Assembly: GCA_003251535.1 (NCBI GenBank)
Contig: QKFD01000060.1
Span: forward strand, 1 to 64,000
DNA: 64,000 nucleotides
Direction of reading: 5' to 3'
Source: Chromatiales bacterium
GTDB lineage: Bacteria > Pseudomonadota > Gammaproteobacteria > Thiohalomonadales > Thiohalomonadaceae
In this document: positions 1 through 12,356 of the stretch, in pieces
Numbering within the stretch: position 1 is the first letter of the stretch
How the letters are laid out: every line of letters begins with the position of its first letter
Notes under the pieces: generated by a model
The model's database searches: none
Told to the model about the DNA's origin: nothing
The model's input: the letters and a program-made list of their open reading frames with translations, nothing else
Program-made: the position numbers and the translations under genes

Positions 1-264
1 ACCTCCACCGTCTCTGCCAGATAGGCTGGATCGCTCGCATCGGCCAAGGCGCTGTAGTCAAAGTCACCGAGGGCTGCGCTCTTGGCCAGCGGTGAAGAGT
101 GCAGGCCAGCGGCAACAAACTGCTCCGTGGTCACCTTCGGCTGGCGGGCGGAGTTCGGCTGGAGCGGCATGAAGGGGAGGTTGTTGGGATCAAATGGCTG
201 GTGGGCACGCTCCAACTTTTTGCCGGCCAACCATCCTTTGAGCTTCTGCGCCTGCGCCAGCTCC
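1..264 (-). CDS. Unrecognised protein fragment, cut by left edge
   Basis: One minus-strand frame is open across the whole stretch and runs off the left edge. It reads as a soluble, fairly polar protein (for example LKGWLAGKKLERAHQPFDP, then MPLQPNSARQPKVTTEQF). I do not recognise the family. On its upstream side it abuts the IS66-type transposase tail near position 264, so its 5-prime end was probably lost to that insertion or to later decay. An in-frame ATG exists at 170, but the open frame continues above it, so the start is unknown. Codon use is GC-rich like the host genes, unlike the AT-rich genes to the right. It may be a broken gene; confidence that it is or was coding is moderate. Confidence 0.4.
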
Positions 265-494
265 ACAATAACCCGGCCGAGAATGTGATTCGGCCTATCG
301 CCCTGGGGCGCAAGAACTGGCTATTCGCCGGCTCGAAGTCTGCGGGGCGGCGCGCCGCCGCCATCATGAGCCTGCTCGCCACCGCCAAGGCCGACGGCCA
401 TGACCCCCACCATGCTTGGGTCTGCGACGTGCTTGAACGCCTGCCCACCACCCGCGCTTCTGATATCGCCTCCCTGCTTCCCCATACCTGGTAG
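264..494 (+). pseudogene. IS66-family transposase C-terminal remnant
   Basis: The last 75 or so codons of an IS66-type DDE transposase are visible. The conserved tail NNPAENVIRPIALGRKNW is followed by LFAGSKSAGRRAAAIMSL and the usual short tail ending in ASDIASLLPHTW before a TAG stop. The N-terminal zinc-finger-like region, the first catalytic residues and the accessory tnpA/tnpB genes are missing. Sequence upstream of about 264 reads as an unrelated minus-strand gene, so this is a truncated insertion-sequence relic and not a functional element. No terminal inverted repeat was identified. It marks the left border of a decayed accessory patch. Confidence 0.85.
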
Positions 495-581
495 CCTGCG
501 GGCATCTGAGCCTGTCGCTTGTTTTCAACCGAAGGCAAGGTGTCTTCAGCGGACGCTTACGATTTACGAGGATCCGCCCAA

Positions 582-1011
582 CTAGGTGCTTACCTTTCTT
601 TTTAAGAACAAAAGATATAAACCCGACACAAATCCCGAAATTACTCCACCTATCATTAATACCCATAAAGGCCATTCATTAGAGAACAGGCCGATCAAAC
701 CCACCATAGCGAAGAGCAGCCAGCAGCCAGTACGCACGAGTAACCGCTGATTGAATGGCAACAACTGAAGCACATAGGGTCGATATGACGAGAAAAACCA
801 AATAGGCATTAACACCAAAACCGATAACCATCGCCGGCACTATTGTAATGCCCGCATAAGACACGATGGTGTGCACATACTCTATTGGCCAATCATTCTG
901 TTTTAGTCGAGTGCCGATAAAAGGCATTTTATAAAAAAATTTAATAACAATAACTCCAGGCACTAGCAAACAGAATAGTTCAATTGCAGATTTAGCATTC
1001 AAGGTAGGCAC
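582..1011 (-). pseudogene. Small four-helix membrane protein, apparent frameshift
   Basis: Two overlapping minus-strand frames look like halves of one protein. The first (1011 to 679, GTG or TTG start) has hydrophobic segments around IELFCLLVPGVIVIKFF and VSYAGITIVPAMVIGFG. It then leaves the hydrophobic pattern and stops. The second frame (818 to 582) picks up with CWLLFAMVGLIGLF and WVLMIGGVISGFVSGLYLLF, ending in FLKRKVST. Joined near 740 they would give a protein of about 140 residues with four membrane helices. A single-base indel, real or from sequencing, would explain this. The gene is AT-rich compared with the flanking genome. It starts 13 bases after the stop of the fragment at 1025-1210. 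Family not recognised. Confidence 0.45.
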
Positions 1012-1024
1012 TCCCGTATTACGC

Positions 1025-1210
1025 TCATGGGGATATCAAAAGGGTTACCTTGCGATTGTTGAGCGCGACCCAAGCGTAACGCTTACCGCCACACAGCCCT
1101 CCATCTAGATCGGTGCCAAAGGCGAAGACGCTGGAGACGTCCACCGAGCCGCAGTCGTAGCGAGAAGTGACCCCGGAGGCACGCAGTGGGGCGATGACTA
1201 GGTTGGAGAC
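1025..1210 (-). pseudogene. C-terminal fragment of an unknown gene
   Basis: This minus-strand stretch of about 61 codons is GC-rich and protein-like (RASGVTSRYDCGSVDVSS, then FAFGTDLDGGLCGGKRYAW) and ends in a TGA at 1025-1027. There is no start codon or ribosome binding site. A stop lies a few codons upstream, and base composition becomes AT-rich exactly there, so only the 3-prime end of a larger gene seems to survive. The protein has two cysteines that could pair. I do not recognise the family. The AT-rich membrane gene follows at once on the same strand, so the two may once have been neighbours in one transcript. Confidence 0.35.
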
Positions 1211-1790
1211 ATTATTTCACATAACCCTAGACACACAATCAAAGCCACTCCCACAAAAACCATCAAAAGACACACTCATTGCCTTTCAAACCCACACAAT
1301 TTCACGCGACACACCTCAAGCATCCCCTCATTTTTCTCCTTAAAAATCTATCAGTTAGGAATCGTGTAGCGACGTAATCAACAATTTCGTGGCGAGGCGC
1401 GCTCAAAATTCCTCGGGAAATGAGCACCTGTTCAGAGCGAAAAATATCCTTGCCGCGAACGCGATGCGAACTGCGAGTAAAATGAGGGGAACCCTGAGGC
1501 GACACACTCCAATTTTTATGCTAAGCGAACAGAATCACTAAGCTGCTCTAGAAACCCTTCTATGAGACGCCAACTCGACTATTCGCCTCGACTACAACCA
1601 CATATTCTCGCACGATTACCGCGAGCGCTAAAATTAACCCGATTCAGCGCAACCACCTGAAATATAGTAAGAGCAACACCATTAGGATGGGTGTACAGGC
1701 ATTCGCATACCGCTCCACCACAATGCCTATTTTTTACTTTAGAACGGACTTCCTATTAGTTTTTTCTCTTTTCAAACGAAAAATCAGTAT
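1211..1790. other. AT-rich stretch without a convincing gene
   Basis: About 580 bases with no frame that looks like a real protein. A minus-strand ribosome binding site (AAGGAGAAAA before ATG near 1330) opens only a nine-codon frame. The longer minus frame at 1302-1505 has no clear start signal or recognisable content. I see no tRNA, no strong terminator and no direct repeats. It is best read as decayed accessory DNA. Confidence 0.5.
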
Positions 1791-1997
1791 CTATTTGAAG
1801 TCGAGACGTTGTTGTTCCCTGCTCGTAAAAAGGCAAAGAACCACCAATACCGTTATTACCGACACAGCAATTAGCAGCCTTTTCCATACAGCCAGATGGC
1901 TTGTAACGTACAACAAATCATCAAACACAAACATCGCTCCCACAAGAAGCACCGACACCAAAGCCGCCCTAAACAAACAGAATCGCCACCGACTCAT
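1791..1997 (-). CDS. Small two-helix membrane protein (68 aa)
   Basis: The frame starts at an ATG preceded by GAGGA seven bases upstream, a good ribosome binding site. The protein has two hydrophobic helices, one around residues 8-28 (LFRAALVSVLLVGAMFVF) and one around 40-58 (RLLIAVSVITVLVVLCLF). They are followed by a short charged cytoplasmic tail ending in QRLDFK. No family is recognised. The gene is AT-rich relative to the core genome and lies among other small membrane genes on the same strand. Lone small membrane proteins in such patches are sometimes immunity proteins, but nothing in the sequence proves that here. Confidence 0.5.
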   Translation of the reverse strand: MSRWRFCLFRAALVSVLLVGAMFVFDDLLYVTSHLAVWKRLLIAVSVITVLVVLCLFTSREQQRLDFK

Positions 1998-2014
1998 GAG
2001 AATTCCTCGACGTC

Positions 2015-2216
2015 TTAAGTGGATCTGAGAATAGCCACTGCACGGCTGACGATGAGGTAAATCATGGCCATGAAGATCTTCGCATTCTGATATTTACGAC
2101 CCCTGGCTCGGATGACCTAAAAAACCATTCAAACCTTCCAGTCATGCGCCAGTGTAGTTAGAGGTTTACCCGTGGGCAATTTGCTCAACGCTGTGCACTG
2201 CAAGGCACCTCATGCC
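2015..2216 (-). pseudogene. Degraded transposase C-terminus
   Basis: The minus strand preserves transposase-like wording interrupted by stops and at least one frameshift. VEQIAHG is followed, one frame over, by GKPLTTLAHDWKV. Then come two stop codons and VIRARGRKYQNAKIF leading into MAMIYLIVSRAVAILRST and a TAA. The final helix resembles the tails of IS4/IS5-like DDE transposases, but I cannot assign the family. Too many lesions are present for function. It is a second mobile-element relic in the same patch as the IS66 tail. Confidence 0.4.
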
Positions 2217-2388
2217 GTCTGTTGATGCATTTTCTCCCCACATCCAGCCCTGGCATTGAAGTATTCATATCTAAATGTTCACCCTCAGCGTAGGCGGTGG
2301 GGAAATTCAATAGAGCTGCCTTATTGGGCGTCTAGAGAGGATAAATTTCGCTCCTCAACCCACCTTCTCATAGATGTTCAGAGGCGAG

Positions 2389-2829
2389 TCAATTGGCTTT
2401 TTGTTGTAAACGCTTACGATTAGAGAAACAAAACAGAAGATGCAAAAATGCCATGGCAGCGTACCAATGCACCCTTACCGCAATAAATTGCTCACCCACT
2501 GTAGCGACAGCACAGGATGTTGCGACGATAAGAGAAATAGCCCAAGCGCTAGGCAGCCAATCTCCCTCCAGCCAGTCGCGGAAACGTCGTGAGGCACAGC
2601 ACGCAATCAAGAAAAACACAGGGAATCCCAAAGCCAGCAGGGTGAGAACGTACAATGGCGATCCGCCCGCCATTGCGGTAACTTGCAAATAGACAACCAT
2701 AGCGACAAAGCCAAACCCTAAGAAGACTGGATAGATACTTCGCAGCATCTTCCGAAGCACCATATACTCCACGAAAGTCAACACAAACCACAGGGTTAAC
2801 ATTTCATAAAAAAAGACATTATAGTTCAT
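2389..2829 (-). CDS. Four-helix membrane protein of unknown function (146 aa)
   Basis: The protein is hydrophobic along most of its length, with helices around residues 8-24 (EMLTLWFVLTFVEYMV), 34-52, 58-78 (LYVLTLLALGFPVFFLIACC) and 94-140. It ends in a positively charged tail (RKRLQQKAN). Its ATG overlaps the TAA of the preceding 50-codon frame (TAATG), so translation is probably coupled. No family is recognised. The gene is AT-rich compared with the genome and sits in the decayed accessory patch. It could be the last gene of a three-gene operon with the frames at 2829-2981 and 2992-3150. Confidence 0.55.
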   Translation of the reverse strand: MNYNVFFYEMLTLWFVLTFVEYMVLRKMLRSIYPVFLGFGFVAMVVYLQVTAMAGGSPLYVLTLLALGFPVFFLIACCASRRFRDWLEGDWLPSAWAISLIVATSCAVATVGEQFIAVRVHWYAAMAFLHLLFCFSNRKRLQQKAN

Positions 2830-2981
2830 TAGGTGACTGCTCTACCAAAAGCTCTTCGGATAGGACATCCTATCCATGAACGCTGTAAAAATGCCAAGAA
2901 ACATCTCTCATCGCTACGCCTGGCACGCTGACAAAAAATACGATAAGGAACCCTTTGACCTGGGCATCCAGCCAATGACAT
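2829..2981 (-). CDS. 50-residue basic, cysteine-containing peptide
   Basis: The frame opens at an ATG with a strong AAAGGAG site five bases upstream and ends in a TAA that shares one base with the ATG of the 146-residue membrane protein. The peptide (starting MSLAGCPGQRVPYRIFCQ) is rich in arginine and holds four cysteines. It has no membrane helix. It resembles no family known to me. The signals at both ends favour real translation, but the composition is odd, and it could be a translated leader or a gene eroded to a short relic. Confidence 0.4.
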   Translation of the reverse strand: MSLAGCPGQRVPYRIFCQRARRSDERCFLAFLQRSWIGCPIRRAFGRAVT

Positions 2982-2991
2982 CAAGACTCCT

Positions 2992-3150
2992 TTACGCTTT
3001 TCCAGACAACAGAAATACAGCCCCAACGACAACAAAGAGGCCGGCCATTATATATCTCCACCCTGCATCCAGCCCTAGACCACCAAACACCAAATAGAGA
3101 TCCAGCAACCCAGAAACGAGCAGTACAGCCCCGAAGATTCTCTCTTTCAT
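2992..3150 (-). CDS. 52-residue two-helix membrane peptide
   Basis: A short minus-strand frame starts MKERIFGAVLLVSGLLDLYL and ends LLSGKA before a TAA. Two hydrophobic segments (residues 5-22 and 33-50) are separated by a glycine-rich turn (VFGGLGLDAGWRY), so it probably forms a membrane hairpin. The stop lies 10 bases before the next start, and the strong ribosome binding site of the next gene begins right after this stop. The three genes from 3150 down to 2389 therefore look like one operon. The family is unknown, and the gene is shorter than most gene finders report. Confidence 0.5.
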   Translation of the reverse strand: MKERIFGAVLLVSGLLDLYLVFGGLGLDAGWRYIMAGLFVVVGAVFLLSGKA

Positions 3151-3655
3151 TGAGTGTTACACAACCCGTTTCTTAAAATTTACTTTAGAAACCTAGCCAG
3201 TGACCAGCAAAAATTATGAAGAATGGCACCCAATAACACCGGACACTATTCTTTGACATAAAAACTTCTAACGCTTCTTCCGATACATTCTTCAAACAAT
3301 CAAACTGTCTTATAGAATGATATATCACGTCCCACCGCCTCCCCGCGATCCACATCCCGATATGCCATTTGAATTTTCAAGCCGTTCTGCCAAAAAGAAT
3401 AAACAGACGACCTGGACACCCCTGACAAAAGCCTTCAGTCAGCCTGATGCAGGGCGCCCCCCAGTGTCGAGGAATAGCCCCCTGCCACCCAGCAGGGCCT
3501 TAAGAATTGACAGGAGACGAAATTACTACCACACCGTCCATCACATCAAGCCATTTTTATACATATGGTTTGATACCCTGTCAGAGATGACAGGTTTTCT
3601 TCATTCCCTTCCTCAAACTTCTTTTTGATGGGGTTTGTCGTGAGGTTGATGGCTT
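3151..3655. other. Intergenic stretch, no gene seen
   Basis: About 505 bases between the small membrane genes and the EamA transporter. The plus-strand frame at 3317-3628 has no ribosome binding site and a proline- and arginine-rich, shadow-like composition. The first 190 bases presumably hold the promoter of the minus-strand small-gene operon, but no clear -35/-10 pair stood out. The stretch marks the change from AT-rich accessory DNA back to the GC-rich core. Confidence 0.5.
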
Positions 3656-4558
3656 CTATTTCGAAAGAATCCGATCCCCTCGCGTTCCCCCTTGGCCCAC
3701 CGTCGTCCACTGCACAGCCAACACGCTGAGCAACACCGCTATGAGGCCCAACAGCGAGAGGCCATGCATCGTTTGCGATAGCAGACTCCACCCTAGCACC
3801 ACCGCCGTGAGGGGACTTAACAGCCCCAGGGAAGAGACCGCCACTGGAGGTAAACGGGCGATGCCGCGGAACCACAGAGCGTAGGCCAAGAGCGCCCCCA
3901 CCAGGCTCAGGTAGACATAGGCGGCTATTTGGATGGAGGAGAGGGGGGGCAGGGGGGCATCGACCCACCAGGCTATGGGTGCCAACATCACCCCGCCGAT
4001 TAGAAGTTGCCAACCGGTCAAGGCCATCAGCGGTACACCCAGACGCCAGCGCCGGGTGAGCCAAGTCCCAGTGGCCATGCAGATAGCGCCTGCGAGGGCG
4101 GCGCCTATTCCCACCGTCTCCCAGACGGTATCAGGAGAGAGGAACAGCGCCGCCATCCCGACCACTCCCATGACCGCCGCAACCACCGTGGTACGGGCGG
4201 GAGAATGGCGCTCCCAACCCCAGTTGAGCCCCATGATGAGGAGTGGTTGGATGGCACCCAATACGGCGGCCAGCCCCCCCGGGAGGCGATAGGCAGCGAC
4301 AAATAGCAGCGCTTGAAATAGCCCGATATTGAGGGCGGCCAGTACCAGTAATCGGCCCCACTCAGCGCGGGGAGGCGCCTTTCGCCACAACAGCACCAGC
4401 AGTAATCCGGCCGGCAGGACCCTGATTAAGGCGGCGGTGAAAGGGCGATCCGGCGGCAGCAGTTCCGAGGTCACTATGTAGGTTGTACCCCAGATCACCG
4501 GGGCGAAGGCGGTGACGACCACACTGCCCCACGGTAGTGAAACGGAGGGAGAGGACAT
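3656..4558 (-). CDS. EamA/DMT-family exporter (PecM-like)
   Basis: A 300-residue inner-membrane protein with about ten helices and the two internal EamA repeats of the drug/metabolite transporter superfamily. Typical signatures are APVIWGTTYIVTSELLPP near the N-terminus, LFVAAYRLPGGLAAVLGAIQ in the first repeat and LSLVGALLAYALWFRGI in the second. Length and layout match PecM/YdcZ-like exporters. It is divergent from a MarR-type regulator 73 bases away, with an 18-base palindrome between them. This is the classic arrangement of the PecS/PecM pair, in which the regulator represses the exporter until a small ligand binds. The substrate cannot be read from the sequence; a metabolite or aromatic efflux role is inference. 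The AT-rich patch ends just downstream. Confidence 0.85.
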   Translation of the reverse strand: MSSPSVSLPWGSVVVTAFAPVIWGTTYIVTSELLPPDRPFTAALIRVLPAGLLLVLLWRKAPPRAEWGRLLVLAALNIGLFQALLFVAAYRLPGGLAAVLGAIQPLLIMGLNWGWERHSPARTTVVAAVMGVVGMAALFLSPDTVWETVGIGAALAGAICMATGTWLTRRWRLGVPLMALTGWQLLIGGVMLAPIAWWVDAPLPPLSSIQIAAYVYLSLVGALLAYALWFRGIARLPPVAVSSLGLLSPLTAVVLGWSLLSQTMHGLSLLGLIAVLLSVLAVQWTTVGQGGTRGDRILSK

Positions 4559-10822: not shown

Positions 10823-10858
10823 AAATGAGATTGACTCTCATTTGAGAAAGTTTATCAT
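10823..10858 (+). promoter_or_regulatory. Fur-box-like palindrome overlapping a sigma-70 promoter
   Basis: AAATGAGA (10823-10830) and TCTCATTT (10836-10843) form a perfect inverted repeat around TTGAC. It resembles the AATGAGAA-type half-sites of Fur operators. A -35-like TTGACT at 10831-10836 and a -10-like TATCAT at 10853-10858, 16 bases apart, overlap it, so a bound repressor would block transcription of the small cysteine protein and the DUF2325 gene. Binding by Fur is inferred from sequence resemblance only. Confidence 0.7.
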
Positions 10859-10889
10859 CTAACGGAAATCCACCCAGGAGAACCGCTAG

Positions 10890-11027
10890 ATGAGTACCTG
10901 TACGACCCCATCCACCCCCCATCGCCCCACCCCCATCCTGCCCTCAGTCCAGGGTAATCCAGCCCCATCGCGTCCTTGTGGCAACTGTCCCAACTGCCCT
11001 CGCCGCCAGCGGCCCCAAGGGGGTTGA
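10890..11027 (+). CDS. 45-residue CxxCxxC peptide, probably iron-regulated
   Basis: The frame has an AGGAG site nine bases before the ATG, starts MSTCTTPSTPHRPTPILPSV and ends with the cysteine cluster PCGNCPNCPRRQRPQGG. Three cysteines are spaced CxxCxxC, with one more near the N-terminus. The rest is proline-rich and probably disordered. Such a cluster suits metal or iron-sulfur binding. It is the first gene behind a Fur-like box and ends three bases before the DUF2325 gene, so the two are surely co-transcribed. I do not recognise a named family, and the gene is short enough to be missed by automatic annotation. Confidence 0.65.
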   Translation: MSTCTTPSTPHRPTPILPSVQGNPAPSRPCGNCPNCPRRQRPQGG

Positions 11028-11030
11028 GCC

Positions 11031-12356
11031 ATGTGTGACCATGCCCCCAACCGGGTCTGTTTCGATCTGGCCATTGATGAGAGCGGCGATCGGTTACTGG
11101 TCCGTGCCGCGGGATCGAGCCACTGCCTAATGGAGATCGAACGGCCTACCCTCCCCCTAAATGGGCTACCCGGGGCGGCGGAACTGTTGGCGCTAGTGGG
11201 GGGGTATGGCATCGGTGAACCCGTGCTACCGGAGCTGCCGGAGAGCGGCACCGGACGGCGGCGGTTGTGGGAGTTGAAGGCGAGCTATCACTGCCCGGTG
11301 ATTGGCACCTGTCTCAGCGTGGGGGAGCTACGCAAACTCTCGCGCCAGACCGGGATCGTCGGCGCCGCCCGCTTCAGTGACTATGAACTCCATGCCGCCT
11401 TCGTCAATCTTGCCGGCGAACCCAACCCCGCCTCGCGCCGCCTACACAAGCGGCTGGATGAGAAGTTTGCCGCCACCCTGCGCCGCTTTGCACCGCTCAG
11501 TGATACCCAAGCGGTGCGCCAGGCGTGGCGCACCGCCCGCGAGCGCGGCGACATCGCCGCCGCCCTCTGGGCAGCGATGACCCATCCACAAGCGGATGCG
11601 GAGTTGATGCAGGAGATCTACCGCGAGGTCCACATGCTCTCCCACCAGATTGGGGCAGGCCTGCGGGCCGATCTGAAACGGTTGGCGGAGTTGGAGCAGG
11701 AGAATGGGCGGCTGACCCATGAGTTGACCCGCAGCGTAGAGCGTTCGGCCCGGAGCTTGGCGGAAAAGGAGCAGACGTTACGCGAGTTGGAGCTGCGTCT
11801 AGGCCGTACCACCGCTTTAGAGGGACGCCTGGCGGCGCTGGAGAGTGGCGCCACCCTAGCGACAGCGCGGGAACGGATCGCGGGCCTGGAGCGGGAGCTG
11901 GCCGCCCAGCAACGCCGCACGGATCGGGCCGAGCGGCTGGTACAGGCCCTGGAGCAGCGCAATACAGCCGTGGCCCACCTACCACCACAGTCCCTGCCTA
12001 CCCCCCAAGGCGGGGAGACAACCGTAAGCGAGGAGCCCTGTCCACCAGATCTATGCGGCCGCTGCGTCCTCTGTGTCGGCGGCCTAACGGGTGCCGCGAG
12101 CCACTACCGCAAGGTGGTGGAGCGCTGTAACGGCCAGTTCCTACATCATGACGGCGGCCTGGAGGAGAGTGCCCACCGCCTACAGGCGCTGCTGGCGCGG
12201 GCCGATGTGGTGGTCTGCCCCGCCGACTGTGTGAGCCACAACGCCTATTGGCGAGTCAAACGGCTCTGTAAGGCCCAAGGCAAACCCTGTCTGATGTTGC
12301 CCAGCTCCGGAGTCTCCGGCCTCGCCCAGGCGCTGGTCCAATTCACCCCCGCCTAG
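11031..12356 (+). CDS. DUF2325-domain protein, Fur-box-controlled
   Basis: A 441-residue cytoplasmic protein in three parts. The N-terminal region (to about 190) contains ELKASYHCPVIGTCLSVGEL and a helical segment. Residues about 195-310 are a long coiled coil (ELEQENGRLTHELTRSVERS, then EKEQTLRELELRLGRTTALE). The C-terminus is a DUF2325 domain: CVLCVGGLTGAASHYRKVVE, then QFLHHDGGLEESAHRLQALL and ADVVVCPADCVSHNAYWRVK. Just before it lies a cysteine cluster (CPPDLCGRCVLC). DUF2325 has no settled biochemical role. Control by a Fur-like box and the cysteine-rich partner suggest an iron- or redox-linked function, which is inference. Confidence 0.8.
   Translation: MCDHAPNRVCFDLAIDESGDRLLVRAAGSSHCLMEIERPTLPLNGLPGAAELLALVGGYGIGEPVLPELPESGTGRRRLWELKASYHCPVIGTCLSVGELRKLSRQTGIVGAARFSDYELHAAFVNLAGEPNPASRRLHKRLDEKFAATLRRFAPLSDTQAVRQAWRTARERGDIAAALWAAMTHPQADAELMQEIYREVHMLSHQIGAGLRADLKRLAELEQENGRLTHELTRSVERSARSLAEKEQTLRELELRLGRTTALEGRLAALESGATLATARERIAGLERELAAQQRRTDRAERLVQALEQRNTAVAHLPPQSLPTPQGGETTVSEEPCPPDLCGRCVLCVGGLTGAASHYRKVVERCNGQFLHHDGGLEESAHRLQALLARADVVVCPADCVSHNAYWRVKRLCKAQGKPCLMLPSSGVSGLAQALVQFTPA

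Follow-up and report, generated by a model that had tools for sequence, protein, structure and literature searches.

Several described systems resemble, in one respect or another, the locus analyzed here. It has been reported that PA4570 of P. aeruginosa is induced by iron starvation and has a canonical Fur site (PMC13277308; PMC8534726). Cj1384c of C. jejuni, a single-domain DUF2325 protein, is controlled by PerR, and its gene neighbors katA and cj1386, the latter for haem trafficking (PMC9426514). CruR, which contains DUF2946, and CutF are metal-sensing upstream open reading frames of copper genes (PMC9426467, PMC9973294). An iron-regulated operon is a known kind of unit, and the function of the main protein of the operon described here, a DUF2325 protein, is undescribed. 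A full-text literature search on DUF2325 returned no link to Fur or to iron uptake, which other literature may hold, and a search for a described Fur-controlled module of hemP, bacterioferritin and cysteine proteins returned nothing on point.

The DUF2325 gene studied here lies in what we call the window, the whole stretch of 64,000 nucleotides of DNA from a Chromatiales bacterium that was analyzed, and is preceded by a Fur box and a short frame encoding 45 amino acids. Like the window DUF2325 gene, the PA4570 family of Pseudomonas (NCBIfam NF050178) is reported to have a Fur site, and relatives of PA4570 are encoded beside DUF2325 in 22 of 99 loci. Unlike DUF2325, PA4570 is a small protein (the family model has 69 positions) and is absent from the window and its genome; its own function is likewise undescribed. 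The haem-uptake operons that contain hemP are similar in that 23 of 99 loci have hemP close to DUF2325, often as part of one Fur-boxed gene run that also holds a TonB receptor, whereas the window has no adjacent hemP or TonB receptor, and HemP is unrelated to either DUF2325 or the 45-aa frame. Cj1384c shares with the window protein the DUF2325 domain and a richness in cysteines, and its regulator PerR belongs to the Fur family. In contrast, Cj1384c has only 104 amino acids, is without the N-terminal Cys/His domain and the coiled coil, and was reported to be induced by oxidative stress rather than to respond to iron. By analogy, the context of Cj1384c fits a role in iron or haem handling but does not prove it.

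The first-pass annotation had described a perfect Fur-like inverted repeat overlapping a promoter, and this was found to be the case. The Fur box (AAATGAGATTGACTCTCATTT, 10823..10843, no strand assigned) is a perfect 8+8 inverted repeat with a 5-nt centre, AAATGAGA-TTGAC-TCTCATTT, which matches 16 of the 18 fixed positions of the Fur consensus AAATGANAATNATTNTCATTT; this repeat and its complement were the only matches in the window with three or fewer mismatches, compared with 0.00 in shuffled sequences. A second, weaker Fur-like site (13 of 18, no strand assigned) overlaps it at 10840..10860. The sigma-70-type promoter-like site on the plus strand (10831..10858) consists of a -35 element TTGACT at 10831-10836 and a -10 element TATCAT at 10853-10858, separated by a 16-nt spacer (10 of 12 matches, with 0.2 such pairs per region in shuffled sequences). 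The -35 element falls within the repeat, and the inverted repeat therefore overlaps the promoter, as is expected for a member of a Fur regulon. The assignment as a Fur box rests on this repeat, on the consensus match, on its rank in the genome and on a position kept in relatives. When the 4.6-Mb genome was scanned with a near-consensus Fur pattern allowing up to two mismatches, five sites were found, compared with none for the reversed pattern used as a control, and the window site was the best of the five and the sole one without a mismatch. Three of the other sites precede genes for a DhbC-like isochorismate synthase (C53), an SBP_bac_6/8-type substrate-binding protein (C26) and an imelysin (C85), and the fifth, near a pilus assembly gene (C102), is probably a chance occurrence. 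The C26 protein may bind iron(III), judging from its Fur box and its general family; in NCBIfam it gave partial matches only, and these suggest different substrates.

The conservation of this arrangement was analyzed in relatives of the DUF2325 protein. In 369 genomes of the class, 21 clear orthologues and 5 weak matches were found. A single-sequence search of genome contigs found no DUF2325 relatives, whereas an alignment-based scan of bacterial and archaeal genomes confirmed at least 584, from which 80 further named loci were drawn. For the 95 loci with enough sequence, a box was scored when at least 14 of 18 positions matched within 450 nt upstream of the conserved RxKLWEL motif. With this threshold, a Fur box was present upstream of DUF2325 in 48 of the 95 loci (51%), compared with 20 of 508 other genes (4%) in the same loci (Fisher p 1e-28; 1.2% in shuffled sequences), and in several further loci the operon is headed by the box, 830-900 nt upstream. 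For the 90 proteins placed in a tree, the upstream 1000 nt contained a box in 62 cases and none in 26, two being unscorable (62 of 88 scored), and the presence of the box was clustered on the tree, with only 5 of 500 shuffles as low. The window protein groups with that of locus L030, which is also boxed. The predicted boxed arrangement was thus shown to be conserved in many Gammaproteobacteria and some Alphaproteobacteria, and the iron control of DUF2325 proposed in the first-pass annotation, which depended on the Fur-like box being conserved upstream of DUF2325, has withstood this comparison. Taken together, the sequence evidence indicates that the DUF2325 promoter is almost certainly controlled by Fur. 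However, no Fur box could be detected for approximately 30% of the relatives, and in Caballeronia and Rhizobium (L138 and L139) DUF2325 is plasmid-borne and located near nifQ or molybdenum-cofactor genes, which suggests a different metal setting for part of the family. Therefore, DUF2325 is not solely an iron family, and iron control is a feature of only part of it. Shorter DUF2325 genes were observed close to hemP in L048 (G340) and in G242, and that of L048 has an upstream Fur box (16 of 18).

The genes surrounding DUF2325 in the relatives were mostly identified by single-query sequence searches, with one profile for PA4570-like proteins, and the counts are therefore approximate. Within about 6 kb of DUF2325 in the 99 loci, the HemP (23) and PA4570-like (22) genes mentioned above were accompanied by TonB receptors (22), bacterioferritin (Bfr, 13), Bfd (5), ferritin (Ftn, 5), FeoB (1) and FeoC (1), and at least one such iron or haem neighbor was present in 53 of the 99 loci. 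For a single-copy gene such as hemP, and 12 kb of a 4-Mb genome, chance would be estimated to give well below one locus in 99. Co-occurrence in the 369 genomes was also elevated, both for DUF2325 and PA4570-like proteins (8 of 21, 1.8 expected, p 1e-4) and for DUF2325 and HemP (11 of 21, 4.1 expected, p 5e-4). These predicted neighborhoods showed physical linkage of DUF2325 in relatives to hemP, TonB receptors, PA4570-like genes and the iron storage or release genes bfr, bfd and ftn. For instance, L030, the nearest row of the tree, has a TonB-type receptor (named from sequence only) and a PepSY-TM protein upstream and bacterioferritin directly downstream. The window DUF2325 gene itself has no iron gene directly adjacent; a spermidine synthase is encoded downstream and a PAP2 phosphatase and a glycosyltransferase upstream, and neither a PA4570-like nor a HemP match was found in its genome. 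The earlier description of the locus as an undescribed iron module is nevertheless fair for its DUF2325 part, because the neighbors in relatives are haem-uptake and iron-storage genes. Since relatives in many proteobacteria share Fur control as well as these neighbors, DUF2325 seems to belong to the iron-starvation toolkit as a so far undescribed component.

Small cysteine-rich proteins were observed in several of these neighborhoods. In eight loci (L036, L043, L061, L068, L074, L075, L078 and L079) the operon order is PA4570-like, HemP, DUF2325, headed by a Fur box and with a TonB receptor nearby, and the PA4570-like protein is a longer form with a C-terminal CxxCxxC. In L038, L039, L045, L070-L073, L076 and L077 a second small Cys-rich family is encoded downstream of DUF2325; its pattern is RLELS..TL.RLL...ADFRCLDC..K.CVWRL, with weak similarity to PA4570 and no Pfam match. 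In the Desulfobulbaceae loci L124, L125 and L114, small proteins, some of which carry a Cys cluster at the C terminus, are encoded next to DUF2325; a flavodoxin-like protein is also found there in L114 and L125, and FeoB and FeoC are encoded upstream in L124.

The DUF2325 protein has 441 amino acids and is encoded on the plus strand (11031..12356, as are the parts given below), starting 3 nt after the stop of the short frame. This start is supported by an enrichment of Met-Cys starts in the N-terminal region of relatives, where 57 of 276 start codons are followed by Cys, compared with 1.2% in the body of the proteins. The N-terminal extension (residues 1-75, 11031..11255) has three predicted strands at residues 11-37 and no family match. 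It was considered as a fused PA4570-like domain and rejected, the profile score of residues 1-76 being no better than that of shuffles; likewise, a search of NCBIfam gave no NF050178 match in the DUF2325 N-terminus or in the peptide of the short frame. The extension is followed by a helical domain (residues 76-208, 11256..11654) with invariant C88, C94, H121, W166, W180 and H201 and nearly invariant H205, by long coiled-coil-like helices in the model (residues 190-314, 11598..11972), by a linker cysteine cluster seen in the sequence (C337, C342, C345 and C348, 12039..12074) and by the DUF2325 domain (PF10087, residues 345-437, 12063..12341), which has a receiver/flavodoxin-like alpha/beta fold. 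The PF10087 match to residues 345-437 (E 4.2e-28; 97.8 bits, against a gathering threshold of 33.6) places the protein in the family, and the coiled coil and the separate cysteine cluster that had been noted at first reading are both present. Besides the cysteines, histidines and tryptophans listed above, G92, M202, L203, G350, G351, H373, G375, L384, D392, S402, H403 and A405 were invariant in 86 sequences, and 60 of the 86 relatives have at least three Cys in the 28 residues before VGG. The model of the protein (mean pLDDT 86) consists of the helical domain, the long helices and the alpha/beta C-terminal domain. The C-terminal domain matched the folds of receivers (best match BaeR, Z 10.9, rmsd 2.3, 93 residues), in a tie with other alpha/beta folds such as deoxyribosyltransferases (Z 10.5), while a Pfam search gave no receiver family match. 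For the helical domain, modelled alone with a pLDDT of 94.8, a fold search of the PDB gave nothing above Z 3.9, which is no proof of a new fold, and the only sequence matches in the PDB were chance ones to coiled coils. A link to SO_1188 of Shewanella was considered and rejected, since this is a PepSY inner-membrane protein.

Based on these sequence features, the unit is very probably repressed by Fur and induced by iron starvation. The full reading, in which its main product is a cytosolic DUF2325 protein that handles metal or haem, is the most likely one and is quite possible, although we stop just short of expecting it. When iron is short, Fur would leave the -35 region and the operon would be made. 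The DUF2325 protein could dimerise or oligomerise via its coiled coil, and the invariant Cys and His residues of the helical domain, together with the cysteines of the linker and the DUF2325 domain, might bind iron, haem or an Fe-S cluster. In this way the protein would handle iron or haem obtained from uptake or released from ferritin. The small Cys-rich neighbors might be exchangeable partners, perhaps the 45-aa peptide in the window and, elsewhere, PA4570-like proteins, FeoC or the downstream Cys-rich family. The metal- or haem-handling role of DUF2325, considered by itself, is a real possibility of about the same or slightly lower strength. Against it, the C-terminal fold resembles receivers and deoxyribosyltransferases rather than a known metalloprotein, and in the literature no binding of metal, haem or Fe-S was found reported for any DUF2325 protein. 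Whether DUF2325, with an N-terminal Cys/His fold that has no solved match, and a set of exchangeable partners comprising CxxCxxC peptides, PA4570-like proteins, FeoC and the downstream Cys-rich family together form a widespread, undescribed Fur-controlled module for haem or iron handling is more doubtful, and we propose it only tentatively. This work gives a candidate role to a domain of undescribed function and brings two orphan genes, those for DUF2325 and PA4570, into one context with hemP and bacterioferritin. Should DUF2325 prove to bind haem or iron, it would help to close a long-standing gap in bacteria that lack the well-studied pathways, namely the cytosolic fate of haem and iron after uptake and the use made of ferritin iron.

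Alternatively, DUF2325 could act in the iron-starvation response as an adaptor for signalling or regulation. The receiver-like domain and the long coiled coil would then pass on a thiol or metal state, either to a nucleic acid or to another protein, and no iron would be carried. The fold match to receivers would agree with this, the conserved cysteines could sense redox, and Cj1384c was strongly induced by oxidative light stress (PMC9426514). However, a shared fold says nothing of function and Pfam assigns the domain to DUF2325, not to the receivers; furthermore, no DNA-binding domain was found in the Pfam and NCBIfam searches, and the neighboring genes serve uptake and storage and are not two-component systems. 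We consider an adaptor unlikely. It is also conceivable that the box is bound not by the iron-sensing Fur but by another regulator of the Fur family (Zur, PerR or Irr), because the genome encodes three proteins of the Fur family and the single-domain DUF2325 of C. jejuni was reported to be PerR-regulated (PMC9426514). This is very improbable, since the box fits the classical Fur consensus, an isochorismate synthase of the siderophore type, a binding protein and an imelysin are encoded behind other near-consensus sites in the genome, and the DUF2325 neighbors in relatives are iron and haem genes.

The 45-aa frame (MSTCTTPSTPHRPTPILPSVQGNPAPSRPCGNCPNCPRRQRPQGG, 10890..11027, plus strand), a putative partner or leader peptide, follows a Shine-Dalgarno-like AGGAG (10876..10880, plus strand). 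The proline-rich CxxCxxC frame of 45 residues, with DUF2325 three bases further on, is present as the first-pass annotation had it. In contrast, the view of this peptide as a conserved partner of DUF2325 could be upheld only in part. Similar frames, 41-52 codons long and containing C-x(2,3)-C-x2-C, were found upstream of DUF2325 in five relatives (L038, L054, L059, L066 and L099), at less than 100 nt from the conserved motif in four and at about 550 nt in L054, and the window frame, which lies directly upstream of DUF2325, shows the cysteine pattern of this Thiotrichaceae type. Small frames bearing CxxCxxC were present upstream of DUF2325 in 17 of 96 loci, compared with 2.5% of control windows, although PA4570-like proteins, Bfd and FeoC account for many of the 17. 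However, most relatives are without a short CxxCxxC frame and have a PA4570-like protein, HemP, FeoC or a family of about 100 amino acids instead. Furthermore, the match of the window frame to the other peptides barely exceeds cysteine spacing alone, its score against a profile of the five peptides being reached by 10 of 2000 full shuffles and by 121 of 2000 with the cysteines fixed. The L038 peptide, when searched across the 369 genomes, clearly matched only itself, and a Pfam search gave no HemP (PF10636) match for the 45-aa frame. Its codon usage (-0.30 bits per codon) is below the 5th percentile (+0.15) of the in-frame stretches of the window, and because this signature is unlike the coding DNA of the window, the frame is only putatively translated. 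From these sequence comparisons, a role of the peptide at the protein level appears rather unlikely.

Two other explanations of the short frame are compatible with the metal- or haem-handling reading of DUF2325. It could be an open frame that arose by chance in a GC-rich leader, with the DUF2325 unit still a genuine Fur target, and this is a substantial possibility that falls somewhat short of even. The poor codon score, the reduction of the peptide similarity to cysteine spacing and the different 95-aa frame at this position in the sister locus L030 would all agree with it. However, a Pro/Thr/Cys-rich composition would lower the codon score regardless, such a frame is rare in control windows, short CxxCxxC frames recur at this position, and the good Shine-Dalgarno sequence and the 3-nt coupling argue for a gene. 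Alternatively, by analogy with CruR and CutF, the frame could be a metal-sensing leader that controls the translation or transcription of DUF2325. Like these, it is a small cysteine-motif frame at the head of a metal-related operon; it is proline-rich, has its own Shine-Dalgarno sequence and stops 3 nt before the DUF2325 start, and the arrangement, minus the Pro-rich part, is found in L038, L059, L066 and L099. Unlike CruR, which combines DUF2946 with CXXC and a C-terminal RAPP, the frame has no DUF2946 or other Pfam match and no RAPP arrest motif, and ends in RRQRPQGG. CutF has a signal sequence, a Pro-rich C terminus and a stem-loop over the downstream ribosome-binding site, whereas the window frame has no hydrophobic N-terminus or signal peptide, and the RNA fold of this region is less stable than that of shuffled sequences (z +1.8), with no protective stem-loop predicted. 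A leader of this kind is improbable. The same fold result led us to reject an attenuator formed by structured RNA between the short frame and DUF2325.

A few minor observations were also made. A tight grouping with Inquilinus limosus was observed for the DUF2325 contig of L121, which is labelled Mycobacterium sp. KBS0706, and the record is possibly mislabelled or contaminated. Relatives of the region were not found in the phage collection. In positions 1-4000 of the window, where no repeat array was found, the G+C content is 0.49-0.51, compared with approximately 0.60, and there is a strong negative GC skew.
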